Shown: one piece after another, positions 2,726 to 52,726 of the stretch | Position numbering within the stretch: the first letter of the stretch is position 1 | How the letters are laid out: every line of letters starts with the position of its first letter | Origin: a virus | DNA length: 64,000 nucleotides | Virus record (IMG/VR): IMGVR_UViG_3300020469_000001 | Location: 41,273 to 105,272 of that record | Strand: one strand, 5' to 3' | Translations under genes and position numbers: made by a program | The notes under the pieces: generated by a model | The model's database searches: none | What the model was told of the DNA's origin: nothing | Seen by the model: the letters and a program-made list of their open reading frames with translations, nothing else

Positions 2726-4510
2726 CTATTTTCGTATGGTATAGATTTTTACAGGTTCTGACTTACCTTTTACAGTTACCTCGTCAAGAAACTCATAATC
2801 ATAACCATCTACTAAACTGTGCTCAGATATAATTAAGTCAGCATCATATTCTTTACAGCTAGATTCTAGTCTAGCAGCCAGATTGACGCTATCACCAAGA
2901 ACGCTGTAATCAAAGCGAGTGCTGCTGCCAAAGTTTCCAACGACACAGTCCCCGGTGTTGATTCCCGCTCCTGTATTAATCTCATCCAAGCCTTCTTCTC
3001 TGAGTTTTTCATTTAACTCCTCCAATGCCACTCTCATTTCGAGAGCTGCCTTTGTTGCATTTTCGACATGATTCTCGTCTGGACACGGCGCTCCCCAAAA
3101 TGCCATGATGCAATCTCCCATATATTTGTCTATTGTTCCCCCATGCTTGAGAATAATCTCAGTCTGATTATCAAGGAAACGATTAATGAGGCTCGTAAGT
3201 CCTTGTGGATTCTTTTGGTATTTTTCCGAAATCGGGGTAAATCCTCGTATATCAGAAAAAAGAAAAGTGAGTCGTGAAGTTAACCCACCCAATCTCAGTA
3301 ATGTTGGGTCGTCCTGTAATTTTTTTACTAAGTCGGGACTAACGTATGTCCCAAATTGTTGTTTGATTCGAAGTTTCTGTTGATACTCCGATAGGAAACT
3401 CAGAAAGGTATGAATACTCCAAAAGAGAACGGATATAATTACGATTCCACTAACGTCAAGCAAGTAAGAAGATTTATATAGATGCCAGGCTCCATATAAA
3501 CTTCCTCCAGTTATCAGTAATAGTGCGGGAACGGAAAGCCAGACTGACCTTGATGCAAAAGCAAGTATTATCAGTGCTAGTAGTGTTGCGATGATTTCTG
3601 CTCCTGTAGCCCAAGTTGGTTGGCTAGGTGCGGTTCCTGTAATTAGATTGTGTAGAATGTTCGCTTGGATTTCGTGTGGGTATTTAGCCCCCGCAGGGGT
3701 CGGCACTGGGTTAGTTATACCCTCTGCAGTCGTGCCGAATATAACGAACGGAGCTTCTATTGGTTTCTTAAGAAACTCCAGTCCGCTTTGTTTGTAAAAC
3801 TTCGTATTCCAATTTAAAAAGATACGACCATTCGCATCTGTATTCATCAGTGGGTAGTTTGGGATTCTTATCCAATCAATACCTTCTGGTGTTGTTTTTA
3901 GCTGGTACGAAGGATCGTTTACGGCGACTCTTAAGAGTTCCAAGGCGAAACTCGGGTAAAGTTTTGACTGCACGTTTACGACTAGGGGAATGCGACGAGT
4001 AACCCCGTCTATTTCCGGCGTAGCGGTTACTACTCCGATTCCCTTTGTTTTTGACTCCAGCGTAGACGCGGTAGGTAAAATTCCTGGTAGTTCGAATAGC
4101 CATGGTAATGGGTCCTCTCCTAACTGAGCAGTACCTACATGAGGGTTTGTCCCAGTTACTTGTGTCGATGCTGCTGAAGCAAGGACTGTTGGTATGTATT
4201 GCATTCGCATAGCAAAGTAATTATCATAATCTTTGCCACGAATGTCGGGGTTTGGCATCAAGATTGTAAAACCTGGTACGGCCTGTGTAGTAGTGATTAA
4301 GTCACCAAACACTGACCTAGGTAATGGCCATCCGCCATAAGTCTGTAGAAAATCTTCATCAAGATCAACTATCAGAATGTTCTCGTTCTGTACTGGTTCG
4401 GTATTCATGATTAAGTAGTCGTAACCAATTAGTTCGACTCTTTGCATGACACCAGGATTCCATATAAGCAATCCCATAAACAGTACTATTGTGATAACTT
4501 TATTTAGCAC
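2726..4510 (-). CDS. CHASE2-domain class III adenylate cyclase, membrane bound
   Basis: 594 residues. N-terminal TM/signal anchor (1-20), then an extracytoplasmic CHASE2 sensor domain with the family's DxDxxFL-like DLDEDFL and RSVFGDL signatures (to about 290), three TM helices (about 300-365), and a C-terminal catalytic domain. The catalytic domain shows FSDIRGFT (first metal Asp), DKYMGDCIMAFWGAP (purine-site Lys, second metal Asp) and GDSVNLAARLE (transition-state Asn and Arg), so it should be active, making cAMP (or less likely cGMP) in the cytoplasm. It is the last gene of the curli-type operon, which suggests envelope sensing linked to the exported proteins. A class III cyclase is unusual in a phage. 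Confidence 0.9.
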   Translation of the reverse strand: MLNKVITIVLFMGLLIWNPGVMQRVELIGYDYLIMNTEPVQNENILIVDLDEDFLQTYGGWPLPRSVFGDLITTTQAVPGFTILMPNPDIRGKDYDNYFAMRMQYIPTVLASAASTQVTGTNPHVGTAQLGEDPLPWLFELPGILPTASTLESKTKGIGVVTATPEIDGVTRRIPLVVNVQSKLYPSFALELLRVAVNDPSYQLKTTPEGIDWIRIPNYPLMNTDANGRIFLNWNTKFYKQSGLEFLKKPIEAPFVIFGTTAEGITNPVPTPAGAKYPHEIQANILHNLITGTAPSQPTWATGAEIIATLLALIILAFASRSVWLSVPALLLITGGSLYGAWHLYKSSYLLDVSGIVIISVLFWSIHTFLSFLSEYQQKLRIKQQFGTYVSPDLVKKLQDDPTLLRLGGLTSRLTFLFSDIRGFTPISEKYQKNPQGLTSLINRFLDNQTEIILKHGGTIDKYMGDCIMAFWGAPCPDENHVENATKAALEMRVALEELNEKLREEGLDEINTGAGINTGDCVVGNFGSSTRFDYSVLGDSVNLAARLESSCKEYDADLIISEHSLVDGYDYEFLDEVTVKGKSEPVKIYTIRK

Positions 4511-5010
4511 GATACATTTACGCCTGTAATATGATGGTAATTAAAATCTCTGCATTCTGAAGCCTCTTCATACAAGTAAAAGTTTCTTATTATTACTGCT
4601 GCAAGAATCCAGTTTGTAAGCACCATTTGCTCCTCTTCTAAGTTAGCTGCTATAATTGGAGTTAATACAGATTTGTGTAGTAAAAATTCTGCAGCAGACG
4701 GCTTTTCCGGCAGTAAAAAGTTGGCTTCCTTTATGTGCGGGTTGTTTCTAGTAAACACATATGAAGTTGTCATGTCAACCGCATTGAGAATATAGTAAGC
4801 TCTTAGTGTTCTCTTAGTGGGTTCATTGTTTATCTTTATAAATCTAAGACGCTTTTTCTCAGCAGCTTCTATTTGAACAGAGTCTTGCTTCATCTGTTCA
4901 TAGTTGAATGGAGTTTCAGGTAGTGTTAAATCTAAGCTATCCGCTTGATTGTTTGACGCTAATAGTAACATCGGCACCATTACCAACGACAACATTGTAA
5001 GCTTTGCCAT
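4504..5010 (-). CDS. Exported or membrane protein of the curli-type operon
   Basis: 168 residues from this ATG, which has GGAACA just upstream and gives a clean signal peptide (MAKLTMLSLVMVPMLLLAS); an in-frame ATG at 5046 would add 12 residues. After the signal come a charged region and two hydrophobic stretches (YYILNAVDMTTSYVF and MVLTNWILAAVIIRNFY). It ends with cysteines in EASECRD and NVSC. No family recognised beyond a loose resemblance to DUF5658-like membrane proteins. It overlaps the FecR gene by 74 bp and the cyclase gene by 7 bp, so it is translationally linked to both. Confidence 0.65.
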   Translation of the reverse strand: MAKLTMLSLVMVPMLLLASNNQADSLDLTLPETPFNYEQMKQDSVQIEAAEKKRLRFIKINNEPTKRTLRAYYILNAVDMTTSYVFTRNNPHIKEANFLLPEKPSAAEFLLHKSVLTPIIAANLEEEQMVLTNWILAAVIIRNFYLYEEASECRDFNYHHITGVNVSC

Positions 5011-6040
5011 CTTGTTCCAATATAATGTTATATCCAGTTTGTCCATTTATATCTAACCTTACACTTTGATTTACTTCTCGAATGAGAGTAAGAAACTCTG
5101 CATCTCCAAAAGTTGTAATCTGTGTGCTTGCATCTTGTCCGAATGTAGTACCTTTTAAATCTACAGGTGCTGCTCCAACGGATGCGAGTTCATTATTATC
5201 TAGTTCATCTACTGATTCTATTATTTCTAGTAGATCTTCCAGGAAGTTAGTTCCTAGGTAGTCTATGTCAAGTTCTCGAAAGTCTTCCTCTACTTCTAAT
5301 AAGTCTACATCGAGCCCGTCGTAAGCGAGGTAGTCGATATCAAGAATATTAGTACCAGAGTCGTCACTTCCAGACGATCCCTCATTTTGTTGTATTTCTT
5401 CATTTTTCTTAGGTGGTGAGACAATCAAAAGATTGTCTATCAGATCTAGTGTTAAGTCGAGGATAACAGGTTTAGTAGGACTCTGTTCCCATACAGTTGT
5501 AACAGTAGATTGATACGGTTTATTTAGTATTACCTGTCCTAAAGCAGTTGCTACTACAATCTCGCCAGAGGGCAGTCCGTTTGCATCTGGTAAGAGTATC
5601 ACCAATGACTTACCGAACTCGTCAACGGTAACAGTAAAGTCTGTTCCTCGAATTGCGATTTGTGCTGTTGGTGTACTGATGTTGATATTCTGTTTGTTTA
5701 TCTGTCCTATCTTACCAGTAATAAATCGAGCAGTGCCACTTGCAAATTGCATACTCATCTTTGACTTGTTTGGATTTGGGTCAAAGATTACTTCGTCTAT
5801 AACAAGTTTGCTATGCTCTGTGAGTCGAACTTGACTATCGTCTATGAATGTGATACCTAGTCGCCCATTAGCTGTACGCACATCATCCATTTGTTGAATG
5901 TCTTGTTCTAAAGTTGCAGGTAAGGTGTCATCTCGAATGACGGCACCTTGCCCGCGTAGTTCCGTGATTGCGCCTATATCAGCAAGAAGTGGATGTACCA
6001 CCATCAGACTGAATAACACAGATGTTACTGTTTGACGCAT
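4937..6040 (-). CDS. FecR-domain exported protein
   Basis: 367 residues with a signal peptide (MRQTVTSVLFSLMVVHPLLA). Residues ~25-170 form a FecR domain: DDVRTANGRLGITFIDDSQV, SGTARFITGK, STPTAQIAIRGTDFTV. This is the usual core of periplasmic FecR-like proteins. The middle (~215-290) is strongly acidic with repeated LDIDYL-type units (DIDYLAYDGLDVDLL, LDIDYLGTNFL), and the C terminus is beta-rich. FecR domains of this stand-alone type often occur beside CHASE2 cyclases, which is the case here. Likely a periplasmic partner or sensor in the export system. Confidence 0.8.
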   Translation of the reverse strand: MRQTVTSVLFSLMVVHPLLADIGAITELRGQGAVIRDDTLPATLEQDIQQMDDVRTANGRLGITFIDDSQVRLTEHSKLVIDEVIFDPNPNKSKMSMQFASGTARFITGKIGQINKQNINISTPTAQIAIRGTDFTVTVDEFGKSLVILLPDANGLPSGEIVVATALGQVILNKPYQSTVTTVWEQSPTKPVILDLTLDLIDNLLIVSPPKKNEEIQQNEGSSGSDDSGTNILDIDYLAYDGLDVDLLEVEEDFRELDIDYLGTNFLEDLLEIIESVDELDNNELASVGAAPVDLKGTTFGQDASTQITTFGDAEFLTLIREVNQSVRLDINGQTGYNIILEQDGKAYNVVVGNGADVTISVKQSSG

Positions 6041-6692
6041 CGCTCTCTATTTTTAACCAATCGAGTGCTAGTGTTGATTTTTGTTGTATTTCAATAGTAT
6101 TTGTACTACCATTTAAATCCAAGTAAAAATAACCTGCATCACTCGATGAGGCTCCTTGACCAGTTTTGGTCAATTCCATTGTATTACTATCTCCTAAGAT
6201 ATCCATATACGCAGTATAGTAGTCAGAGTCTATATCGAATGTTAAATCGTTACTGTCTCCGTCTAGTATTAGATCTAAGTCTAAATAACTTGCTCCTGCA
6301 TTTTCACCGATGTCCCAATCAAAAACGTTTGAGCTACCTGTTACATCTACATTGATGTTTGCAAAGTCAACTGTATTTAGTCCTGTAGTATCCATAGAAA
6401 ACTCGAATGTATTTGAATCTCCATCAAATTCGAAGAAACCAGTAAAGTTTTCGCCTAATACACCGTCAGTTAGAAATTTATTTGAAGAACCAATCTGGTT
6501 AATATCCAATGTCCATGTACCACCGTTTAAGATAGCTTTTGTCATAGAACCGCTTGTTGCATCGTCACCACCAATAAGGTTGTTCGATCCTAGTTGCTCT
6601 AAGTCAATATTGACATTGTTTCCAGTTTGATCTATGTAAATTTCATTGTCTGCATATAAACCAAAGGATAGTAATAAAAGTAATATTCTCAT
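5979..6692 (-). CDS. Curlin-repeat (CsgA/CsgB-like) secreted protein
   Basis: 237 residues, signal peptide MRILLLLLSFGLYA. The mature part is built of repeats with the curlin-like pattern x-x-G-[SD]-x-N-x-[hydrophobic]-x-[hydrophobic]: for example IDQTGNNVNIDLEQLGSNN, INQIGSSNKF, DGDSNTFEF, GSSNVFDW, DGDSNDLTF, LGDSNTMEL and NGSTNTIEI. The repeats are more Asp-rich and less Gln-rich than E. coli CsgA. The C terminus carries two cysteines. As the only repeat protein next to CsgG and CsgF it is the obvious cargo. Start overlaps the CsgG stop (TAATG). It could form fibres, or display a phage-made surface filament on the host. Confidence 0.8.
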   Translation of the reverse strand: MRILLLLLSFGLYADNEIYIDQTGNNVNIDLEQLGSNNLIGGDDATSGSMTKAILNGGTWTLDINQIGSSNKFLTDGVLGENFTGFFEFDGDSNTFEFSMDTTGLNTVDFANINVDVTGSSNVFDWDIGENAGASYLDLDLILDGDSNDLTFDIDSDYYTAYMDILGDSNTMELTKTGQGASSSDAGYFYLDLNGSTNTIEIQQKSTLALDWLKIESDASNSNICVIQSDGGTSTSC

Positions 6693-7558
6693 TACTTCTC
6701 TCCCCAGTACTTCCAGTACCCTTTCTCTTTGCCGTCTTTTATCAATTGAACTACTGCAGTTTCAAGCGCTGCTTGTATTGCAATAGATTTACTTTCATTC
6801 ATTGCAGTTCCGCTTTCAAACTCTACGAGCTTTGTGCCTTCTGCTATAAACCTAAAGAAGTCATTTGATACTCCGACAGAGAGTATTTTCTTTGACGTAA
6901 GGATTTCCATTAAGATCTCTCCTGTACTCACAGAAACTAGTCTTAATGAGACCACTACGGTATCCTCACGATATTGCTTGGAGTTACCAATGCCTAAATA
7001 TCTAGCACCTATACCTCCTGTTAATAGATTAGTGTTATAATCTACTATTCCCCCTTCAATGATTAATCCAGCAAACAGTAGTGGAAGCTGCTCGTCTTCA
7101 TCATTAAAACTTTGTCTAGTCTGTCTTATTAATTGTCTTTCTCTAGTTAAGTGGTCAAGGCCACCTCTTTCGACAACTTTGAAGAATCCAGACTGTTTGA
7201 GTGCTCTTATGAGGTATGTCTCGGGAGCCATAGTAACAGCAGTACTGAAACTAGCTATACCATCGACACTCTTTCTTTGTCCTGTTGAATCTGTAAATTT
7301 GTATACGGCCACCACGGGATATCGTGATGGTTGTGGAATTGTTTTAATTGCATCTGTAACTGGCGTATTGATAATAGCATCTCCAGAAAAGCATTGCGCT
7401 TTTCCGATAATAGTTACAACATCTTTATAGTCTTCGTCTGGATTTGTTAAGCAAGGTGACACATATTTGTAATGTGTAAAGTTTGCACAACTAGCCAGTA
7501 GGAAAACCGAAGTCGCCAATAGGGATTGTAATGACAGTCGTTTCACCAGTAGCCTCAT
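6692..7558 (-). CDS. csgG: CsgG-like curli secretion channel lipoprotein
   Basis: 288 residues. Lipobox LLASC with the lipidated Cys at 24. Body matches CsgG: PVVAVYKFTDSTGQRK, then ALKQSGFFKVVERGGLDHLTRERQLIRQTR, LLFAGLIIEGGIVDYNTNLLTGGIGARYLGIG (beta-barrel/plug region) and VSLRLVSVSTGEILMEI. CsgG is a nonameric outer-membrane pore exporting CsgA. Length equals that of E. coli CsgG (about 277 plus extension). It overlaps csgF by 68 bp; the chosen ATG is the one giving the lipoprotein signal. CsgG-like genes have been noted in some aquatic phages, to my recollection, but the complete operon context here is striking. Confidence 0.92.
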   Translation of the reverse strand: MRLLVKRLSLQSLLATSVFLLASCANFTHYKYVSPCLTNPDEDYKDVVTIIGKAQCFSGDAIINTPVTDAIKTIPQPSRYPVVAVYKFTDSTGQRKSVDGIASFSTAVTMAPETYLIRALKQSGFFKVVERGGLDHLTRERQLIRQTRQSFNDEDEQLPLLFAGLIIEGGIVDYNTNLLTGGIGARYLGIGNSKQYREDTVVVSLRLVSVSTGEILMEILTSKKILSVGVSNDFFRFIAEGTKLVEFESGTAMNESKSIAIQAALETAVVQLIKDGKEKGYWKYWGEK

Positions 7559-7985
7559 TAAATATGGTCATTGTAATTGATATACCATCTGATGTCCATG
7601 TAATCAGATTATCAAACAACATGAATGATCCTTCCGATGCAGGGTTTTCTCCGAACAACTGGTCTACTAGCTGTCGAGATAACTGTGCGTATACTCTACT
7701 CTCAAAGTTCTTTATAAATCTTGCGAGAGTACTATTATTTTCCTCTCGTTCTGCGGCTTCTTTGAGTGCTTTAATTTCTGCGGCGATTGCCTCTTTTCTT
7801 GACATCTCTTGTGAGTCAATTGTAAGATAGTGGCTAGATGTACCTACACCACTGAATGAAGGATTTTTAAATCCAAACTTTATTTCATCCGCGTTTAAGT
7901 CTGCTGCAATTGCTATAAAGCTTAATATAAATAAAGCTCCTATAACACTATTTGCAACTCTGTTATTTAGTTTTCTTTCGTTCAT
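7491..7985 (-). CDS. csgF: CsgF-like curli assembly factor
   Basis: 164 residues with an N-terminal signal anchor (about 13-32, VIGALFILSFIAIAADLNA). The mature N terminus has KFGFKNPSFSGVG, matching the conserved F-x-N-P-x-F-G-G segment by which CsgF plugs into the CsgG pore. The remainder is helical then beta-rich, ending FGFPTG. CsgF couples nucleation to the CsgG channel at the cell surface. Overlaps csgG downstream by 68 bp and the preceding membrane-protein gene by 23 bp. Confidence 0.88.
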   Translation of the reverse strand: MNERKLNNRVANSVIGALFILSFIAIAADLNADEIKFGFKNPSFSGVGTSSHYLTIDSQEMSRKEAIAAEIKALKEAAEREENNSTLARFIKNFESRVYAQLSRQLVDQLFGENPASEGSFMLFDNLITWTSDGISITMTIFNEATGETTVITIPIGDFGFPTG

Positions 7986-13632: not shown

Positions 13633-13661
13633 TTGACAATAGGGGCGAAATCGCCGATAAT
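13633..13661 (+). promoter_or_regulatory. Promoter TTGACA-N17-GATAAT
   Basis: Spacer contains the palindrome GGCGA-AA-TCGCC, which could act as an operator. Drives the noncoding transcript at 13668-13940. Confidence 0.75.
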
Positions 13662-13667
13662 ATTTAT

Positions 13668-13940
13668 ATTGATTGAGAGGGAAACAACCGAAAGGGAAAC
13701 GAACTCGACAGACTAGGAAAGACAACAGAAACATAGACACAGAAACCCACTCTCTAAGAATCGAACTCGCAGAACTTCAACCACCTCCGAGACTGAGTCG
13801 CTGACAAGGTCAACAGGGAATGAACTCAAAATCAAGACAGGCTAGGAAGTCTCGACCAACTAGCCGACCGAGAGGGAAAGGACTCATACTCCGAGATTAT
13901 ATCAAAAGAGATTGTTGGACTTCCCCTCTCACTTTTTTTT
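13668..13940 (+). ncRNA. Candidate closed-stem small RNA (~270 nt)
   Basis: No credible ORF follows the promoter at 13633. The 5' end GAGAGGG-AA (13675-13683) pairs with TT-CCCCTCTC (13921-13930), extended by AAC/GTT, and the 3' strand runs straight into eight T's, so the terminator stem is formed with the RNA's own 5' end. Inside are GGCTAG/CTAGCC and CGAGACT/AGTCTCG pairings and two related purine-rich units (GGGAA..GAACTC...GACAG..TAGGAA). Confidence 0.55.
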
Positions 13941-14007
13941 CACCGATTTTTTCGGAGGACTGCCCCTGCCCGAGATTTGAGAAATCCTGACGCGCCCTGC
14001 GCCAACG

Positions 14008-14922: not shown

Positions 14923-15234
14923 ATGGCAAACGCTAAAAATTATACAGAAGAAATGGTCAGTCAAATGACCGAAGCATACTCTGCTAACCCTAGTAGAGAA
15001 ACAGTAGACGAACTTGCTCAAACTTTCGGCAAAACAACTAGAAGTATCATTGCTAAGTTGTCAAGAGAAGGAGTATACATCGCTCAACCTAGAACTACAA
15101 AATCTGGTGAACCAGTTGTAGCAAAGTCTGAGTTAGTTGCTCAACTCGAAGCACACTTTGGAATTGAACTACCTACACTTGTCAAAGCAGGTAAGCAAGA
15201 CCTACAAAGATTGGTCGACACAATCGCATCTTAA
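14923..15234 (+). CDS. Myb/SANT-like HTH protein, family member 1
   Basis: 103 residues from the ATG preceded by GGGAGAATACTA; a GTG at 14818 with a perfect SD would give a 138-residue form. N-terminal YTEEMVSQMTEAYSANPSRETVDELAQTFGKTTRSIIAKLSREGVY is a tri-helical Myb/SANT or HTH domain (T-R-S-I-I-A-K-L-S-R recognition helix). C-terminal module KSELVAQLEAHFGIELPTLVKAGKQDLQRLVDTI recurs in other small proteins of the window. Two strong promoters suggest high early expression. Likely a DNA-binding regulator. Confidence 0.75.
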   Translation: MANAKNYTEEMVSQMTEAYSANPSRETVDELAQTFGKTTRSIIAKLSREGVYIAQPRTTKSGEPVVAKSELVAQLEAHFGIELPTLVKAGKQDLQRLVDTIAS

Positions 15235-15284
15235 TTGTTGAGGAGTGATTACCCTAAGTAATCAATTTTGAAGAGAGTATCTAT

Positions 15285-15350
15285 CTGAGGTAAGTGTCTA
15301 CGGAAGCACACCTAAAGAGGAAGTAGCAAGTTCGACTCTTGCACCTCAGA
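15285..15350 (+). ncRNA. tRNA-like element lacking an anticodon arm
   Basis: Acceptor-like stem CTGAGGT/ACCTCAG (15285-15291 with 15343-15349), discriminator-like A, a D-arm-like hairpin GTGT...ACAC with GG in the loop (15294-15311), and a perfect T arm GCAAG-TTCGACT-CTTGC (15326-15342). Only 14 nt separate D- and T-like arms, too few for an anticodon arm. The acceptor stem continues outward (AT, then AGAGA/TCTCT with a bulge). No CCA. Lies in the 3' region of the SANT-like gene. Not a functional tRNA; a tRNA mimic or a degenerate tRNA. Confidence 0.5.
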
Positions 15351-15399: not shown

Positions 15400-15428
15400 T
15401 TGACAAATCCTTAAAAAGCGAGTATAAT
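15400..15428 (+). promoter_or_regulatory. Promoter TTGACA-N17-TATAAT
   Basis: Perfect consensus; no ORF follows before the next promoter at 15552. Confidence 0.85.
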
Positions 15429-15434
15429 ATATTT

Positions 15435-15540
15435 ATATTCAAAAAAAGGAAAACCCACTGGGACTGGGCATCTGGAAGTGATGACATAGTTAACACTTAG
15501 AATTAAACTGTTTGCCCTACCCACCTTTCAAGAAATAAAT
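15435..15540 (+). ncRNA. Short structured RNA candidate (~100 nt)
   Basis: Transcribed from 15400-15428. Contains GGGCA...TGCCC closing an imperfect inner stem (AGTTAA / TTAAACT). No SD-led ORF. No T-run terminator before the next promoter, so it may read into the large RNA or be processed. Confidence 0.45.
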
Positions 15541-15551
15541 CAAAATTTTTC

Positions 15552-15580
15552 TTGACAAATGGTTAAAAAGTGGATATAAT
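15552..15580 (+). promoter_or_regulatory. Promoter of the large RNA, TTGACA-N17-TATAAT
   Basis: Perfect consensus with 17-bp spacer; predicted start about 15587. Confidence 0.88.
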
Positions 15581-15586
15581 ATACTT

Positions 15587-16525
15587 ATATTCAAAAACAA
15601 AAAAGAATAGCAAAACACGGAGTGAAGTACGCCATTAAAGATACTTCTAGTGTGGCGACACGATAAAATGACTGCCGAACGCTCGTTAGATATTGAGAGA
15701 AAGCGTTAGATGAGTTCAATATCCGCTTTTGAGAGTCAGATACAGACATATCCTCCGCAGCAGGAAGCGAGTGTATCTTCGATTGACTTGTCGGTAAAGG
15801 GAGTATAAAAGCACGATAACTGCCAGTAATTCCTACACTAAGTCCCTTTTTCGGGCAGTAGGTAGTAAGCGATTTCGTTGACTGCTCTCCAAGTAGTGTA
15901 TTGGCACTATAAAGTCCTGAGGATTAGTATGAATTACACAGGTAAAACAGTAAATCATACCGTGATTGACGCGTAGATACATCGAGAATATCACGCAGAG
16001 TGAGGAAACCACGCTGATTCTATACCACACCCTCAACCGTTTCGGTAGTAGGAAGTAGAGCATAGAACGAGTAGTAAACCAGTTTGACATTTCAGTGTGC
16101 AAGGTATGAGATAATTTCAAAACCCACCAAGTAATGAGAGCATAAATGCAAACTTCAAGGGCAAGGAAGTTAGAGGAACATATGATGTACTTTAGTTGAG
16201 ACTTCCACGCTACCTGCGAGTGAGAACCCACGCGGCGATTCAGGTTTACCTGTCAAAGTAGTAGGGACATTGGGGGCAGTTAGCAACTTAGAGGAAATAG
16301 ACACCGATTGATGAGTGAGGAAAACAATCGAGTGAGCAAGTGAAAGGTCGATACAACCTCTATTCCAAGTATCGCACTTGCAGTTAGGCATACACTATCG
16401 TTGAGGTTTCGAGTAAAGCAATCCGAGATAGAGAGTAATGCCAAGTTGTAGACCGATATCAGTCTGACAGCGATAGTAAAAAACAAATAGTTTTTTCGAG
16501 GGAACAGCGCGTTCCCTCTTTTTTT
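15587..16525 (+). ncRNA. Large ORF-less structured RNA, ~940 nt
   Basis: Bounded by a consensus promoter and an intrinsic terminator, with no plausible rightward ORF. Many local stems are visible: GAAGTA/TACTTC (15624-15629/15642-15647), GATATTGA/TCAATATC (15689-15696/15716-15723), AAAGGGA/TCCCTTT (15796/15843), CGTGAT/ATCACG (15961/15990), ATACC+ACAC/GTGT+GGTAT (16022/16095), AACTTC/GAAGTT (16151/16166), CGATTG/CAATCG (16305/16325), a 13-bp stem GCAAGTG + CGATAC (16336/16369) and ACTATCG/CGATAGT (16394/16471). Loop CGCC (15630) can kiss loop GGCG (15654). Size, phage setting and a nearby tRNA-like element recall GOLLD and ROOL RNAs, but I cannot assign it to a family. Confidence 0.8.
16498..16525 (+). 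terminator. Intrinsic terminator of the large RNA
   Basis: GAGGGAAC-AGCGC-GTTCCCTC stem followed by seven T's. Confidence 0.92.
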
Positions 16526-16575: not shown

Positions 16576-16604
16576 TTGACAAACAAGATAAAAGTGAGTA
16601 TAAT
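16576..16604 (+). promoter_or_regulatory. Promoter of the 16.7-20.3 kb operon
   Basis: AGTTCTTGACA-N17-TATAAT. Followed by a ~120-nt leader with CCACA/TGTGG pairing and GGGGAG-GAGTGAAATGA-CTCCCC hairpin before an AAGGAGGG site at the first gene; the leader could be regulatory. Confidence 0.85.
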
Positions 16605-16732
16605 ATATGTATCAAAAGAAAAAGGAAACCACATTTTCCGACATAATGAGTGTGGGGGTCGTAACCGAAAGCGCAGGGGAGGAGTGAAATGACTCCCCAC
16701 CTAGATTAACTATTATTTATAAGGAGGGCATC

Positions 16733-16951
16733 ATGCCAGCAAAATTTAAACCAAGTGAAAAGATTTACAAGAGAGGAGTTCCAGCAAGAAACTTGCCAGA
16801 AAGACACTTCTATCTAAAGAACACTCCTAAAGAGGAACTGTTCTCAGAAATTAACAAGCACAATGTCAAACCAAAACAAAGACAAAAGTGCCTAAACGAA
16901 CTCGCTAGACGAGGCGTGGAAGTAGTGTGGACTACTAAGGAGAGTGTGTAA
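16733..16951 (+). CDS. Small basic phage protein
   Basis: 72 residues; KFKPSEKIYKRGVPARNLPERHFYLKNTPKEELFSEINKHNVKPKQRQKCLNELARRGVEVVW. The C-terminal half looks like a small helical domain. Preceded by AAGGAGGG. Similar short proteins occur in aquatic phages; function unknown. Confidence 0.65.
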   Translation: MPAKFKPSEKIYKRGVPARNLPERHFYLKNTPKEELFSEINKHNVKPKQRQKCLNELARRGVEVVWTTKESV

Positions 16952-34718: not shown

Positions 34719-35016
34719 AAAAGAAATAATCTTTAGTAAAGAAGAACAAAAAAATAGTAATAGAATTTATAAGAGTGCCACACCAAAACAGACAACTGAT
34801 TGGTATATCAAGTGGGCAGCCTCTGGAGTACTACTTACAGCTATGGTTATTAGGTCGGCAGGAGTATCAAATCTTGCTGATACAATATTATCTTTTATTG
34901 GGTGTTTAGGTTGGTTATTTGTAGCGTTTATCTGGAAGGATAGAGCATTAATACTTTTAAACGGCATAGCTTGTTTCATATTATTAACAGGAATATTCAC
35001 TAAAGTATTGTCATGA
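34708..35016 (+). CDS. Membrane protein, 3 TM segments
   Basis: 102 residues; polar N terminus, then hydrophobic segments from residue 30 (WYIKWAASGVLLTAMVI, LADTILSFIGCLGWLFVAFIW, LILLNGIACFILLTGIF). Resembles small inner-membrane phage proteins; no function known. Confidence 0.6.
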   Translation: MANKKEIIFSKEEQKNSNRIYKSATPKQTTDWYIKWAASGVLLTAMVIRSAGVSNLADTILSFIGCLGWLFVAFIWKDRALILLNGIACFILLTGIFTKVLS

Positions 35017-35780
35017 ACCCCATACTAATCAATATAGATGTATGTGGTATCTGTAACGAATCGTGTAATTATTGCCCGAGGTCATCTTCATATCCAAACA
35101 AAAAAGAATATATGAGTGTAGAACTTTTTACTAAGTTCATAAATGATTGTAAGGATTATACTGGGTTCATCTGTTTTACAGGCAGAGGAGAAAACAGTTT
35201 AAACCCAAAATTCAAGAAACTTGTGGAAATTTTACATTCGAGTGATAGGAAGTATAAGACTAGAATTTTGACAAATGGATATAAACTAAAAGAAAAGTAT
35301 GAATGGTTTAACATGTTTGATTCGCTAATCATCAACTCTTACGAGAGTAAACATCAGATGGAAGCAAGAAAAAAACTTATGCCTCGTGCTACCCACAGGT
35401 ATTGGGATCAAAGTATAGAGCCAGAAGAATGGGGTGAAACACCTATTCAAGTTCAAAATAGAACTGAACTATACGAAAGAATCGCAACAGATAGAAGTGA
35501 AATTAACACACCTTGCATATTACCAGCAAGTAAAGGGTGGATACATCATGACGGAACTATACAGTTATGTTGTAATGATTGGACAGACACAAATGTATAT
35601 GGCAACATTGCACATGATAACTTCTTTGATGTATGGAATAATAATGAAGAACTTATAAAGATAAGAACACAGCTGTTATATGGCAATAGAAGTGCTAATC
35701 CTATATGCACAAATTGTAATAGGAAAGTAACAGATAGAGAGGAGAAAAGAATTGGAAGGCTTAGACAAGTCTATAAATAG
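35013..35780 (+). CDS. Radical SAM protein (SPASM-like)
   Basis: 255 residues. CNESCNYC (C14, C18, C21) is the canonical CX3CX2C [4Fe-4S]-SAM motif; FICFTGRGENSLNPKF and TRILTNGYKL follow the radical SAM barrel. C-terminal cysteines (TPCILPAS, LCCNDW, NPICTNCNR) suggest a SPASM-type auxiliary cluster. The chemistry cannot be predicted. The phage's own IscU/IscA could supply its clusters. Overlaps neighbours by 4 and 29 nt. Confidence 0.88.
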   Translation: MNPILINIDVCGICNESCNYCPRSSSYPNKKEYMSVELFTKFINDCKDYTGFICFTGRGENSLNPKFKKLVEILHSSDRKYKTRILTNGYKLKEKYEWFNMFDSLIINSYESKHQMEARKKLMPRATHRYWDQSIEPEEWGETPIQVQNRTELYERIATDRSEINTPCILPASKGWIHHDGTIQLCCNDWTDTNVYGNIAHDNFFDVWNNNEELIKIRTQLLYGNRSANPICTNCNRKVTDREEKRIGRLRQVYK

Positions 35781-37401: not shown

Positions 37402-37781
37402 TGGCTGGGGGAATATATAACGAAACATATTTTAAGAACTACCCTGAAGAAAAAGAAAGGGAAGGAATACTGTATGGTATTGTATTGGTAAATATGAAAA
37501 CATGGGAACGAGAAACTATAAAAGTAGGCATCGCAAAAGGAAGAACCTTCAAAGACGCAGTACGAAGAGGGCGTGGATTTACAAACTACGACATTCGGAT
37601 TCAGAGACTGTGGCAGGGGAATCTATACGATTGTTGGAGATTCGAGCAAAAACTACACAACCAGTTTCAGAAAGATAGACATAAAACGGAGCATAAATTT
37701 GGCGGACATACGGAGTGTTTCTCAATGGACAGCAAAATCTTGGAGGTATTTCCGAAGAAGAATGAGATATTTAGGGATTAG
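37401..37781 (+). CDS. T5orf172/GIY-YIG-like protein
   Basis: 126 residues. EGILYGIVLVNMKTWERETIKVGIAKGR is the GIY-YIG-type fold as in T5orf172 domains (I-Y-x-x-x ... K-V/I-G), then WRFEQKLHNQFQKDRH with the helix E. Possible endonuclease or DNA-binding. Overlaps the next gene by 20 nt. Confidence 0.7.
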   Translation: MAGGIYNETYFKNYPEEKEREGILYGIVLVNMKTWERETIKVGIAKGRTFKDAVRRGRGFTNYDIRIQRLWQGNLYDCWRFEQKLHNQFQKDRHKTEHKFGGHTECFSMDSKILEVFPKKNEIFRD

Positions 37782-39108
37782 CGAGGGCTTTCACAATGCA
37801 GCATACGCTGTAGTGGAAGGAGATAAGGTTATCTACGCAACAGAAGTAGAGAGAATAACTCGTGTAAAAAATGATAAAACAATACCAGATTTTCATTTCA
37901 ACACATTACAGAGTAAATTTAATTATGATGAAACAATTTTTTATGAACATACTGATATCAAGAATGCGAGACGAGACATGTACAGAATGGCAAAAACAAC
38001 GCCGTGCAGACCGTATACTCACAGAAATATATTTCACCATGAAAGCCATTACGCCGCTGCTTATTTTTCTGCTCCTTTCACTCCTGACAGCACGGTTGTA
38101 ATCGATGCTATTGGAGAGTTTGATACAGCAACAATATGGGTAGAGGGTAAGAAAGTATGGTCAAAGCAATACCCATGGTCACTAGGATTATTCTATAGTG
38201 CAATCACGAAACGAATAGGACTAAAACCAAACGAAGATGAGTATATTACTATGGGCATGGCTGCCTTTGGGGATATATCTATAGATATGCAGGAAGAAAT
38301 ACACCAAAATAATCACAAAGGTTTTAAGAGACGTAAGTGGTTTTGGCACACTCCTGAAGATATAGCTGCGTCAGCACAAGCTCATCTAGAAACAGAGCTA
38401 CTAGACATCTTTGCAAAAGCAAGGAAGTATGGACCAAATGTAGCGTATGCTGGTGGGGTTGCGTTAAACTGTGTGGCAAACAGTAAGATAAGACCTATGT
38501 TTGACAATATGTGGATATTTCCAAACCCAGGCGATGCAGGTAGTGCGTTAGGTTGCGTACTTGCAAAAACTAAACAGAAAATAAAATTCGAAGACACTTT
38601 CCTAGGACATGATATAACAAGAAGTATCAATCCTAAGTTAGTAGTCGATACACTACTTAAAAGAAAAGTAGTAGGAGTAGCAAATGGAAAAGCAGAATTT
38701 GGGCCTCGTGCCCTCGGGAATCGCAGTTTGCTTGGTGATGTTCGTTATGATATTAAAGACACAGTCAATAATATTAAGCGAAGACAAAAGTTTCGTCCTT
38801 TTGCTCCCGCAATCCTCGAGGAGTATTATGAAAAATATTTTGAAGGATACGGAAACGAATACATGCAATTCGTTGCAAAAGCGAAACACGACTACAGTTC
38901 TGTCACACACATTGATGGAACCTCAAGAGTCCAGGTGGTCAAGCCTAGCTCTAAGTCAGCACTGCGACCTATACTAGAAGAATATTACGAGAGAACAGGA
39001 GTACCTATGTTGCTCAATACAAGTTTGAATATTAAAGGCGAACCTATGGTTAATACTGTGGAAGACGCTGATAGATTTCAAAGCAACTACGGAGTGAGAG
39101 TATTTTGA
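37762..39108 (+). CDS. Carbamoyltransferase (NodU/CmcH family)
   Basis: 448 residues from the ATG at 37762 (MRYLGISEGFHNAA aligns with the family start; an open frame to 37573 is rejected). Shows HHESHYAAAYFSAPF (metal-binding His), YITMGMAAFGD, VAYAGGVALNCVANSKI, PNPGDAGSALGC, EFGPRALGNRS and PMLLNTSLNIKGEP. Transfers carbamoyl from carbamoyl phosphate via carbamoyl-AMP to a hydroxyl. In phages these may modify sugars or bases. The acceptor here is unknown. Confidence 0.93.
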   Translation: MRYLGISEGFHNAAYAVVEGDKVIYATEVERITRVKNDKTIPDFHFNTLQSKFNYDETIFYEHTDIKNARRDMYRMAKTTPCRPYTHRNIFHHESHYAAAYFSAPFTPDSTVVIDAIGEFDTATIWVEGKKVWSKQYPWSLGLFYSAITKRIGLKPNEDEYITMGMAAFGDISIDMQEEIHQNNHKGFKRRKWFWHTPEDIAASAQAHLETELLDIFAKARKYGPNVAYAGGVALNCVANSKIRPMFDNMWIFPNPGDAGSALGCVLAKTKQKIKFEDTFLGHDITRSINPKLVVDTLLKRKVVGVANGKAEFGPRALGNRSLLGDVRYDIKDTVNNIKRRQKFRPFAPAILEEYYEKYFEGYGNEYMQFVAKAKHDYSSVTHIDGTSRVQVVKPSSKSALRPILEEYYERTGVPMLLNTSLNIKGEPMVNTVEDADRFQSNYGVRVF

Positions 39109-42959: not shown

Positions 42960-43123
42960 TATTATACACAGAAAAACAACTTGAAGACGCATGGCACATT
43001 CATTGTGCAGAAATAGTATATAGCAACCAAGAAAGCACAGTATATTTAGCATATCCAACACTAGAGGAGTTCAGACCTATCTATGAAGAAATGATGGAGG
43101 ATATATTAAGTGGTCGCACATGA
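42956..43123 (+). CDS. Small hypothetical protein
   Basis: 55 residues (ILYTEKQLEDAWHIHCAEI...YEEMMEDILSGRT), ATGA overlap with the helicase and 14-nt overlap with the next gene. No family recognised. Confidence 0.55.
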   Translation: MILYTEKQLEDAWHIHCAEIVYSNQESTVYLAYPTLEEFRPIYEEMMEDILSGRT

Positions 43124-43763
43124 TAAGAAATGGTGTTATGTACATATACCTAAATGCGGAGGTATATCAATAACAAGAGCATGGTTAGCTCAACAAGACA
43201 AAAAATTTTTATTCCAACATAGAAATTGGCAAGTAGGATTAAATGCCGATTTTATTAGAGAGGGAATAGACAACAGAACAAAAGGAACAGTATTTAACAA
43301 TATACACGCAACCTACGACCAGTTAGCAATACAGTACCCAAACTATAAGTATTATACTGTAATAAGAAACCCTCTCACAAGATGGGAAAGTCTTTATAAA
43401 CACGCTTGTGATGAAGGCTTTATAGTAGACTGGGATATTATAACTTGGACAAAGAAAGCAATACAGTCCCTAGAGAATGGGGCATACTTCGGTACTATAC
43501 AGAACTTAGATGTATTTGAAAAAAGTTTAGTTCGTATGGGCAGTTACCATGTGATGTATTTACCAGCATGGACATACTACAGAGAACCAGAAGTAGAAGT
43601 GCATAGACTAGAAGACCACACTATTTGGAAAGCTCTAGGAATAATAAGAAACAATCATCATGCCTCTATAACACAACTAGCAGGGTATGATAAAGAGTAT
43701 GTAATGAAATTAATTTACGAATACTACAGGAAGGATTTTGAAAGATGGCAGATGACAGAGTAA
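43110..43763 (+). CDS. Sulfotransferase family protein
   Basis: 217 residues, GTG start. YVHIPKCGGISITRAW is the 5'-phosphosulfate loop (H-I-P-K-C/T-G-G) and YTVIRNPLTRWESLYKHAC the 3'-phosphate site of PAPS-dependent sulfotransferases; so a complete PAPS-binding fold. A kinase resembling APS kinase is encoded at 48.6 kb. Acceptor unknown, possibly a surface glycan. Confidence 0.8.
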   Translation: MVAHDKKWCYVHIPKCGGISITRAWLAQQDKKFLFQHRNWQVGLNADFIREGIDNRTKGTVFNNIHATYDQLAIQYPNYKYYTVIRNPLTRWESLYKHACDEGFIVDWDIITWTKKAIQSLENGAYFGTIQNLDVFEKSLVRMGSYHVMYLPAWTYYREPEVEVHRLEDHTIWKALGIIRNNHHASITQLAGYDKEYVMKLIYEYYRKDFERWQMTE

Positions 43764-50730: not shown

Positions 50731-51233
50731 TAATGGTTATTAATAATTTCTTTACGGATGAACAGTGTGCCTTTTGGCGCTCTTACTGTTCTTTTGCTAG
50801 TAATAATGATAGTTTAGAAGTAGCATTAAAAGTACAAGAAGTGCCACAAAAAGTAGATAGAAATTATTACACCTTACTAAGTAAATATAACTTTATGGAT
50901 GAAGTAAAGTATCTTGCAGAGAAAAATTTTAAGAAAAAGTTATATTTTCAAAAAAGAAACTATGGACATATAATGCATTATCACACTCCTGGACAAGGAT
51001 TGAGGTGGCATGCAGAACCTAATATTAGTACTGTATCAGTATCTATCAACATATCAGAAGAATATGAAGGTGCTGAATTACAGTTTAGACAAGAAGATTT
51101 ACAACTGCCATATAAAAGCGCAGTATTTTACGATAGTAACTTGGCACACAGAGTCAGTCCTCTTACGAGTGGTGAAAAGATGAGTATAGTTATGTGGCTA
51201 CCAAATAAGGAACAATTATGTGTGGATTCGTAG
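50727..51233 (+). CDS. 2OG-Fe(II) oxygenase-like protein
   Basis: 168 residues. GLRWHAEPNISTVSVSINISEEYEGAELQF (H-x-E in place of HxD) and SNLAHRVSPLTSGEKMSIVMW (distal H, with K where Arg usually binds 2OG). The substitutions at two positions leave activity uncertain. Sixth oxygenase-type gene of the window. Confidence 0.7.
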   Translation: MIMVINNFFTDEQCAFWRSYCSFASNNDSLEVALKVQEVPQKVDRNYYTLLSKYNFMDEVKYLAEKNFKKKLYFQKRNYGHIMHYHTPGQGLRWHAEPNISTVSVSINISEEYEGAELQFRQEDLQLPYKSAVFYDSNLAHRVSPLTSGEKMSIVMWLPNKEQLCVDS

Positions 51234-52726
51234 TAACAACTAGAAGGCATGATATAGAATACATGACCATGAGACAGAAACATCGTGGTCCAACAGATAC
51301 AGGTTACTATAAAGATGGTAGGTTTGCTTACGGGCATGTTTTACTTGATGTAAATGGAGAGCATCAAGTACAACCTTACAAAACAAAGAAAGGAAATATT
51401 CTAGTATTCAATGGAGAAATGTATGATTCTAATGTTAGTAATGATACAGCTTTTCTAGGAAATGGGCTAGATTTATTCGGATATAGATTTATTGGAAGCA
51501 CTGACTTTCATGGCTCGTTTGTATATCACAATAAACAAACAAATAAATTAATCATAGTACGAGATCACTTTGGGGCAAAACCTTTGTGGATTTATAAGAA
51601 AGGTAATGATATTACTGTTAGTACTAGTTTGAGAAGTATATATTGGAAAGAAACTAATAAAGATGAATATAATATGTACATGCACAACCCTTTATGGTTA
51701 GGAACAAAGTCTCCATATAAAGATATAATTAAAGTTGCTCCTGGTCAAATGTGGATTTATGATTTAAAGACAAACAAAATGGAACAAAAGAATCTATGGG
51801 CAAATATGAGAATTGGGTCAAAGGAAATAGACTTGGCAGAGTTCAAAGAAAACTGTATCAATGGAATAAAAAAGGTTGCAAAGAATAAACAAAAAACAGC
51901 ATTATTCCTTAGTGGAGGATTAGATAGTACTTGTGCACTAGGTGTGCTCAAAGAAGAAGATTTGAACTTGACTGCGTACATCTGTAATTATGGTAAGGGT
52001 GGAGAGCTTTTTCACGATCATGATGGATTTAGAAATGAGGCAAGAATGGCAGTACAAACTTGTCAAGAGTGGGGAGTTCCTTATAAAGTTGTAAATCTAA
52101 ACTATGAATCTTTACATCACTATCATAGAATGTGGTTAGCACATACACACTATCCTTGGGTAGATAGAAATAGAACAGCTCCTAGATTTGCACTGTGTAA
52201 AGCGGCAAGTCGTGACGGGTGTAAAGTAGTTCTAACTGGAGATAGTGCCGATGAATTATTTACAGGATATCAACATCATGATAGATACTATGATGATGAA
52301 TATAATAAAGAAACAATAGAACAATATTCTACAAGACAACAGTGGATTCCAAGACAGATATTTAGTGAAACAGACCACAAGAATAATGCTTTATGGTATG
52401 ATTTAGTGAGTACATCAGAACAAAATATACTGACAACTGACCAAACCTGCGGTATGTGGGGATTAGAAAGCAGACCAGTATTTTTATCACAAAGTTTTGT
52501 AAGATACATGATAGGTATAGAAAGCGGAGTAAAATTCACTAAGCATCGTAAGTATCAGTTAGGGACATATAAGTATCTATTAAGAGAAGTTATGGCGGAC
52601 TATTTACCAAATCATGTCCGTAACAGAATGAACAAAACAGGGTGGTCATCCCCTTGGGATAATAACCATCCAGAGTTGACTAAGCTATGGAAGCTACAAG
52701 ATTTGGAATTTATTGCAAACTTATGA
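51218..52726 (+). CDS. asnB: Asparagine synthetase B-like amidotransferase
   Basis: 502 residues. Cys2 after the initiator Met is the N-terminal nucleophile glutaminase (MCGFVVTTRR, KHRGPTDTG, LVFNGEMYDS), and TALFLSGGLDSTCALGVL is the synthetase PP-loop, with VVLTGDSADELFTGY downstream. Uses glutamine and ATP to amidate aspartate or an analogous acid; in phages it could serve amino-acid supply or modify a glycan/peptide. Confidence 0.92.
   Translation: MCGFVVTTRRHDIEYMTMRQKHRGPTDTGYYKDGRFAYGHVLLDVNGEHQVQPYKTKKGNILVFNGEMYDSNVSNDTAFLGNGLDLFGYRFIGSTDFHGSFVYHNKQTNKLIIVRDHFGAKPLWIYKKGNDITVSTSLRSIYWKETNKDEYNMYMHNPLWLGTKSPYKDIIKVAPGQMWIYDLKTNKMEQKNLWANMRIGSKEIDLAEFKENCINGIKKVAKNKQKTALFLSGGLDSTCALGVLKEEDLNLTAYICNYGKGGELFHDHDGFRNEARMAVQTCQEWGVPYKVVNLNYESLHHYHRMWLAHTHYPWVDRNRTAPRFALCKAASRDGCKVVLTGDSADELFTGYQHHDRYYDDEYNKETIEQYSTRQQWIPRQIFSETDHKNNALWYDLVSTSEQNILTTDQTCGMWGLESRPVFLSQSFVRYMIGIESGVKFTKHRKYQLGTYKYLLREVMADYLPNHVRNRMNKTGWSSPWDNNHPELTKLWKLQDLEFIANL

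Follow-up and report, generated by a model that had tools for sequence, protein, structure and literature searches.

The window (the whole stretch of DNA analysed here, 64,000 nucleotides corresponding to bases 41273–105272 of a 105,272-base virus record) carries on its plus strand, between two small genes designated A and B, a transcription unit predicted to specify a large noncoding RNA. The features of this locus are as follows:

14923–15231, plus strand: gene A, the upstream syntenic flank, 103 amino acids, no Pfam match.
15284–15350, plus strand: predicted tRNA-like element with a 7-bp acceptor, D-arm AAGUGUCUACGGAAGCAC, a vestigial anticodon arm and a T-arm with a UUCGACU loop.
15400–15535, plus strand: promoter P1 (15400–15428, perfect) and a short promoter-led RNA-like stretch before P2.
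15552–15580, plus strand: promoter P2 of the large RNA, an exact TTGACA-N17-TATAAT.
15587–16525, plus strand: large noncoding RNA of about 939 nt, with predicted start and end.
16498–16525, plus strand: intrinsic terminator of the large RNA, a stem (16498–16518) followed by a T-run.
16576–16604, plus strand: promoter P3, the start of the next unit (gene B leader).
16733–16951, plus strand: gene B, the downstream syntenic flank, 72 amino acids, no Pfam match.

The stretch between P3 and gene B (16576–16732) is promoter-led and possibly structured, forming a long leader of gene B. Gene A appears to be part of a small repeated family in the window (14923, 19782, 31986 and 40797); the related locus L085 has a second gene A copy, 44% identical, at the place of 19782, and the likenesses of 31986 and 40797 were judged by eye. 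Elsewhere in the window, the minus strand of 2726–7985 encodes, by Pfam, the curli secretion genes csgG and csgF, a FecR-domain protein and a CHASE2-guanylate cyclase; the protein at 5979–6692 is curlin-like by eye with no Pfam match. Within 13633–13960 a strong promoter (11 of 12 matches) precedes a stretch with only short forward ORFs (43 and 56 amino acids), possibly another noncoding RNA. Metabolic-looking genes lie at 35013–35780, 37573–39108, 43110–43763 and 51218–52726; they comprise a carbamoyltransferase and, by eye only, radical-SAM-like, sulfotransferase-like and asparagine-synthase-like ORFs.

The original prediction that the unit has a promoter and a terminator of its own was borne out by the exact P2 sequence and by the terminator stem with its T-run. 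No perfect promoter lies on the plus strand from 15587 to 16490, which holds only single 9-of-12 matches at 15901 and 16464, and no terminator-like site was found in that interval. Perfect TTGACA-N17-TATAAT promoters number 15 in the whole window against 0.07 expected; as a correction to the original reading, such a promoter is not rare here. The statement that the unit lacks any plausible ORF held for the forward strand, where the longest ORF is 32 amino acids against a shuffled mean of 52, but not for the reverse strand, which has an ORF of 132 amino acids (15833–16231; p about 0.01 in shuffles). This antisense ORF was rejected: in L088, which is 82% identical to the window over the RNA, gaps that shift the frame interrupt the aligned stretch, and its three frames hold 4, 2 and 9 stops. 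Among 57 non-redundant members (below), the longest forward ORF averaged 55.4 amino acids against 55.3 in shuffles (p < 0.05 in 3 of 57) and the longest reverse ORF 85 against 68 (p < 0.05 in 12 of 57). No conserved coding frame was thus found, with forward ORFs at the shuffle level and reverse-strand preservation checked on one pair, the window and L088. The minimum free energy of the unit was −239.5 compared with −223.5 (sd 5.7) in shuffles (z −2.81; 0 of 20 shuffles as low); taken alone this is modest evidence, and it is covariation that settles the structure.

The phage DNA polymerase is approximately 45–46% identical to those of Pantoea, Erwinia and Salmonella phages, which we take to be T5-like, and the carriers of the locus are uncultured phages distantly related to phage T5. 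Searches of viral contigs returned homologues of gene A (the best 80 of 91 loci) and of gene B (71 loci); two gene A proteins had no match among deposited phages (the window's gene A at E ≤ 1e-5). Both genes were present at 113 loci, some from the same contig, giving 75 distinct A–B intervals including that of the window. These span 1,351–3,339 nt, with extra ORFs in some of the longest. At least two sigma-70-type promoters were found in 74 of these 75 regions, which were selected for the presence of both genes, with 204 matches in total against 0.85 in mononucleotide shuffles. The RNAs of 74 regions were excised between promoters (L209, with a single promoter match, was dropped), and 57 remained below 95% identity; near-identical sequences were removed at 95%, 97% or 98% identity depending on the analysis. 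Judged by a loose criterion, all 57 members have a terminator-like site before P3. With a second gene A query the search extended to more distant relatives (31 loci, L314–L344). Nineteen of these have at least two promoters after gene A and no forward ORF of at least 70 amino acids between the first and last, a count made by reading the listing and including three contigs already counted; L341–L344 and others among the 31 have a different arrangement. BLASTN of the RNA regions of four members against 50,697 phage records gave no homologue and one 60-nt match to a Streptococcus phage around promoter P1, which we treated as chance or promoter similarity.

Identity among the 57 members was too low for a whole-length alignment to be used for structure. 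Covariation was sought in an alignment of 40 non-redundant sequences, taken from groups I and II and their near neighbours, in which all 473,851 column pairs were scored with an APC-corrected G statistic against 100 simulated alignments. The procedure is home-made and R-scape-like, and is phylogeny-aware in that the simulations retain the tree and shift substitutions to random columns. Thirteen pairs reached E ≤ 0.01; 12 of them were canonical in at least 94% of sequences with letters there and one was not (60%). With group II plus new sequences (n = 24) all seven pairs at E = 0 were canonical. A scan of the same type over these 24 sequences, at E < 0.2 and a distance of at least 4, gave 28 pairs, 11 canonical and 17 not; ten of the 17 sit in one block (columns 304–330), which appears to be a peripheral hairpin exchanged between lineages. 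Analysed by themselves, neither group III (7 sequences) nor group IV (10) yielded a canonical covarying pair; a single non-canonical one came from group IV. The 5' domain has the following elements:

15650–15917, plus strand: conserved 5' domain of 13 helices, four of which cross others (one a single pair); its nested pairs make up covariance model R1.
15650–15661, plus strand: hairpin with an invariant GGC at the loop start; the stem GUGU/ACAC covaries.
15676–15723, plus strand: pseudoknot in which 15676–15678:15703–15705 and 15682–15684:15697–15699 are crossed by 15689–15693:15719–15723.
15735–15778, plus strand: 7-bp helix 15738–15744:15772–15778, crossed by GUC:GAC (15735–15737:15745–15747).
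15779–15893, plus strand: hairpin 15779–15783:15790–15794, whose loop bases 15787–15789 pair with 15891–15893.
15895–15915, plus strand: hairpin 15895–15899:15904–15908, with a pair between the first base of its loop, 15900, and 15915.

Alignment A1 of this domain holds 35 sequences; L172, L177, L185, L215 and L244 were excluded from the 40 on the grounds of poor alignment or because part of the domain was absent. An all-pairs test confined to the 5' domain gave 13 pairs at E ≤ 0.025, of which 11 were canonical in every sequence with letters and two were not. The drawn structure has 47 pairs, with 97.8% of 1,614 cells paired and both sides changing in 34 of the 47; its covariation score was 0.607, which shuffling lowered to 0.201 (sd 0.010) and sliding by 1–3 columns to 0.119 or less. 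The structure was drawn on this same alignment with five of 40 sequences omitted, which makes the pairing count partly circular, unlike the all-pairs tests. The first stem also occurs as GUGA/UCAC, GACU/AGUC, GAGU/ACUC, GUGC/GCAC and GUCA/UGAC, and in the 7-bp helix both sides change in all seven pairs. Pairing in the crossing helices was 92.9% for 15689–15693:15719–15723 and 100% for both 15735–15737:15745–15747 and 15787–15789:15891–15893. The single pair 15900:15915, which is A-U in 15 sequences, C-G in 10 and G-C in 10 of 35, had the top score among all 473,851 pairs. Across the 5' structure G.U cells numbered 108 and A.C cells 9, a ratio that would reverse on the other strand, indicating that selection acts on the plus-strand RNA. 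A kissing pair (CGCC/GGCG) that had been proposed proved not to be conserved, the complement of the loop lying within 60 nt upstream in only 4 of 35 sequences. The GGC at the loop start (15654–15656) can instead pair with GCC at 15674–15676, and a GCC lies within 24 nt downstream of the loop in 34 of 35, a pairing too constant for a covariation test.

Downstream of this domain lies the most widely shared part found:

15958–16001, plus strand: core element of 44 nt (covariance model R2); its hairpin loop bases 15982–15984 pair with upstream 15961–15963.

Core alignment A2 comprised the 33 pattern matches among the 57 members minus L135, which was mis-anchored and was later found by R2. Column pair 4–30 is G-C in 15, C-G in 12 and A-U in 5 of 32 sequences and was unequalled in 300 simulated alignments; the nested stem has approximately 79% of cells paired. 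Two of five measures on this alignment were not clearly above shuffles (pair types 344 of 500, double-changed pairs 23 of 500); the same held for these measures in newly found matches (50 and 19 of 500). R2 was built without crossing pairs. At E < 0.01 it matched 26 of 70 sources, a figure that includes the window (in training) and some sequences near-identical to training members, and it matched 14 of 40 mostly more distant sources. In 17 new R2 matches (16 distinct, three weak) the core crossing helix was 97.7% paired, its leading pair being C-G in nine, A-U in four, G-C in one and U-G in one. The four crossing helices or pairs of the 5' domain and the one in the core are, as read from these alignments, predicted pseudoknots.

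R1 also found members outside its training set: L180 (E 3.6e-32), L105 (1.9e-25) and L336 (4.2e-9; its gene A and that of L200 share 58% identity), together with L106, L177, L172 and L185; all five A1 omissions, including L215 and L244, were recovered. Among 20 virus records R1 had a single copy in eight and was absent from 12. R1 found none of group III (7) or group IV (10), and R2 found one of the ten in group IV (L193); some syntenic RNAs are unrecognised by these models. A hairpin pattern search of genome_contigs gave 18 matches where about 30 were expected by chance (17 fixed bases, 257 Gb, both strands), and none of the 18 matched R1 or R2 at E ≤ 1; we rejected them as homologues.

Beyond the core the RNA is poorly resolved in its 3' half, where two features were delimited:

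16000–16012, plus strand: hairpin with a GAAA tetraloop (GUGAGGAAACCAC), a pattern found in 19 of 57 non-redundant members.
16013–16211, plus strand: length-variable stretch with a covarying stem at its end (approximately 16165–16206).

From 15998 onward, 34 sequences gave three canonical pairs at E ≤ 0.02, and the other four pairs at E < 0.3 were non-canonical. In 17 members with both anchors the distance before the GAAA hairpin was steady (408–531 nt), and both the stretch just after it (117–483 nt) and the remainder (327–679 nt) varied. A likeness to GOLLD and ROOL through a single variable linker was dropped, since two downstream stretches vary. Neither outcome originally named as refuting the RNA was seen: homologues covary strongly in the all-pairs tests, the 5' domain and the core crossing helix, and no conserved ORF turned up; statistical support for covariation is weak from 15998 on.

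A search of the window with 4,227 Rfam models gave none at the gathering score and chance-level matches only at E ≤ 10. At gathering, 12 relatives holding the RNA gave two ordinary tRNAs only; at E ≤ 0.5, 12 loci, some without the whole RNA, gave one tRNA and two below-threshold matches. The search with the GOLLD, ROOL, OLE, HEARO and raiA models that had been recommended gave no match over the RNA, nor did the group II intron or other Rfam families; families known from Weinberg 2009 and from Harris and Breaker 2018 were compared through Rfam models only. GOLLD (RF02032, cut-off 150 bits) was found in 0 of 50 records in a search without a positive control, two scores of 6.0 and 5.8 bits lying outside the RNA. 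ROOL (RF03087, cut-off 99.1 bits) was likewise found in 0 of 50, with nothing at E ≤ 10, and here the positive control, a known carrier, was detected (E 1.1e-29). The earlier failure to match the RNA to either family was therefore upheld, with a control for ROOL only, and membership of both was rejected. None of the titles and abstracts listed by searches of open-licence PMC papers describes this RNA, which is not proof that it is unpublished.

The functions of the large RNAs GOLLD, ROOL and OLE are described as poorly understood (PMC12286853). According to the same source, GOLLD RNAs are phage-borne, often near tRNAs or tRNA islands, with many members over 800 nt, pseudoknots and a conserved GAAA loop, and form a 14-mer cage; ROOL RNAs are large and phage-associated, with several pseudoknots, often near tRNA islands, and form an 8-mer, the solved example being 659 nt. 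The RNA described here, at about 940 nt, resembles GOLLD in size, phage location, tRNA neighbourhood, pseudoknots and GAAA loop (PMC12286853), and resembles ROOL in being large, phage-associated, rich in pseudoknots and close to tRNA features (PMC12286853). It differs from ROOL in the absence of a model match and in being longer than the solved molecule. As described, GOLLD has a conserved 3' region and a less conserved 5' region (PMC12286853), whereas here the universally conserved 3' region was not found, the conserved parts are the 5' domain and core, and it is the later parts that vary. In phage ICP1 an ORF-less space yields a noncoding transcript of about 800 nt, the most abundant of that phage, which its authors liken to GOLLD and ROOL (PMC7567579). 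The present RNA is likewise the predicted transcript of an ORF-less phage stretch; a difference is that ICP1 is described as having no tRNAs (PMC7567579). BLASTN of the phage collection gave no match to the ICP1 transcript, the presence of ICP1 in that collection being unchecked. Phage K lnc001 and lnc002 are also long noncoding RNAs beside tRNA genes, and lnc001 has its own early promoter (PMC9241854), the RNA here likewise having a promoter of its own; they differ in that BLASTN of the phage collection gave no match, a comparison by sequence and not structure.

The tRNA-like element noted beside the large RNA, which lies outside the RNA's own unit, does recur: its D-arm signature is present in 47 of 75 regions, with the T-arm as GTTCGA in 39 and GTTCAA in eight. 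It was called by neither ARAGORN nor Rfam, and its stems gave no significant covariation (20 sequences, best E 0.175), the cloverleaf being predicted. By eye, the tRNA-like RNA was seen in L091, L122, L125 and others, with a longer anticodon arm in L122 and L125. True tRNA-Glu(UUC) genes occur in six of the 75 regions; five precede the RNA and one, in L098, follows it.

The alignments show 15587–16525 to encode a predicted pseudoknot-rich RNA under plus-strand selection, conserved at a single locus in a group of uncultured phages. We consider it very probable that this is a new family of large, ornate structured phage noncoding RNA, in agreement with the original suggestion of a new or divergent giant phage RNA, given a covarying pseudoknotted RNA with no conserved ORF and no Rfam match. 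It is GOLLD/ROOL-like in character and, as judged by homology tests, a member of neither. Host sigma-70 RNA polymerase would transcribe it early from its own promoter, transcription would stop at its own terminator, and the RNA would accumulate as a stable species working through its three-dimensional fold rather than by translation or antisense pairing. By analogy with GOLLD and ROOL it may be a rigid scaffold that self-assembles and/or captures a translation component during infection, the candidates being the ribosome, a tRNA or the neighbouring tRNA-like RNA. Such a scaffold or assembly role is the likeliest mechanism, although we hold it tentatively. That the RNA is a third, independently evolved phage family self-assembling into an RNA-only complex, possibly with the adjacent anticodon-less tRNA mimic, is possible but doubtful. 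A search for self-pairing loops gave no signal at column distances 1–3 in group II plus new sequences or in groups III and IV, the one canonical pair at that distance having both its bases in a single strand of a stem; oligomers thus have no positive support.

The RNA could instead work as a monomer that binds a host or defence protein or serves as its decoy, the target being for example RNA polymerase, a nuclease or a factor that binds tRNA. Host-type promoters, which suggest early expression, and the adjoining promoter-led short RNA stretch and tRNA-like element are consistent with this, but the elaborate pseudoknotted domain exceeds the apparent needs of a simple decoy, and we regard this role as unlikely while still a serious contender. 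The probability left by the scaffold and the monomeric binder is divided among a composite transcript, a cis leader and further roles in trans. If one transcript joined several small RNAs or regulatory elements with no relation to one another, this might account for peripheral pieces that appear swapped between relatives and for the differing distributions of R1 and R2; crossing pairs that join distant pieces of the 5' domain, for example 15787–15789 with 15891–15893, and an interior without a perfect promoter or terminator-like site on its plus strand (15587–16490) make this improbable.

A strongly diverged GOLLD or ROOL RNA would explain the shared size, phage location and tRNA neighbourhood (PMC12286853), but is very improbable given that none of 50 records exceeded either cut-off, with a working control for ROOL and none for GOLLD, and that the conservation pattern described for GOLLD is reversed. 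About as improbable is that the RNA serves gene B as a long leader or riboregulator: it does lie upstream of gene B in 75 regions, though these were chosen for having both genes, and we rejected this reading because the RNA has its own terminator, gene B has the perfect promoter P3 downstream of it, and L180 has the 5' domain with no gene B detected in its 9.7-kb locus. A DNA-level element (an origin, packaging or recombination site), to which a long stretch free of forward ORFs beside repeated promoters might point, was rejected as having next to no likelihood, in view of the one-strand RNA selection evident from the G.U excess, the pseudoknots and the promoter–terminator framing.

The large RNA of this locus would thus represent a further, apparently unrelated phage RNA family, with many natural variants, a pseudoknotted domain supported by covariation and a compact shared core. 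It would open to direct test whether phages in general resort to assemblies made of RNA only, and why large RNAs of this sort accompany tRNAs.
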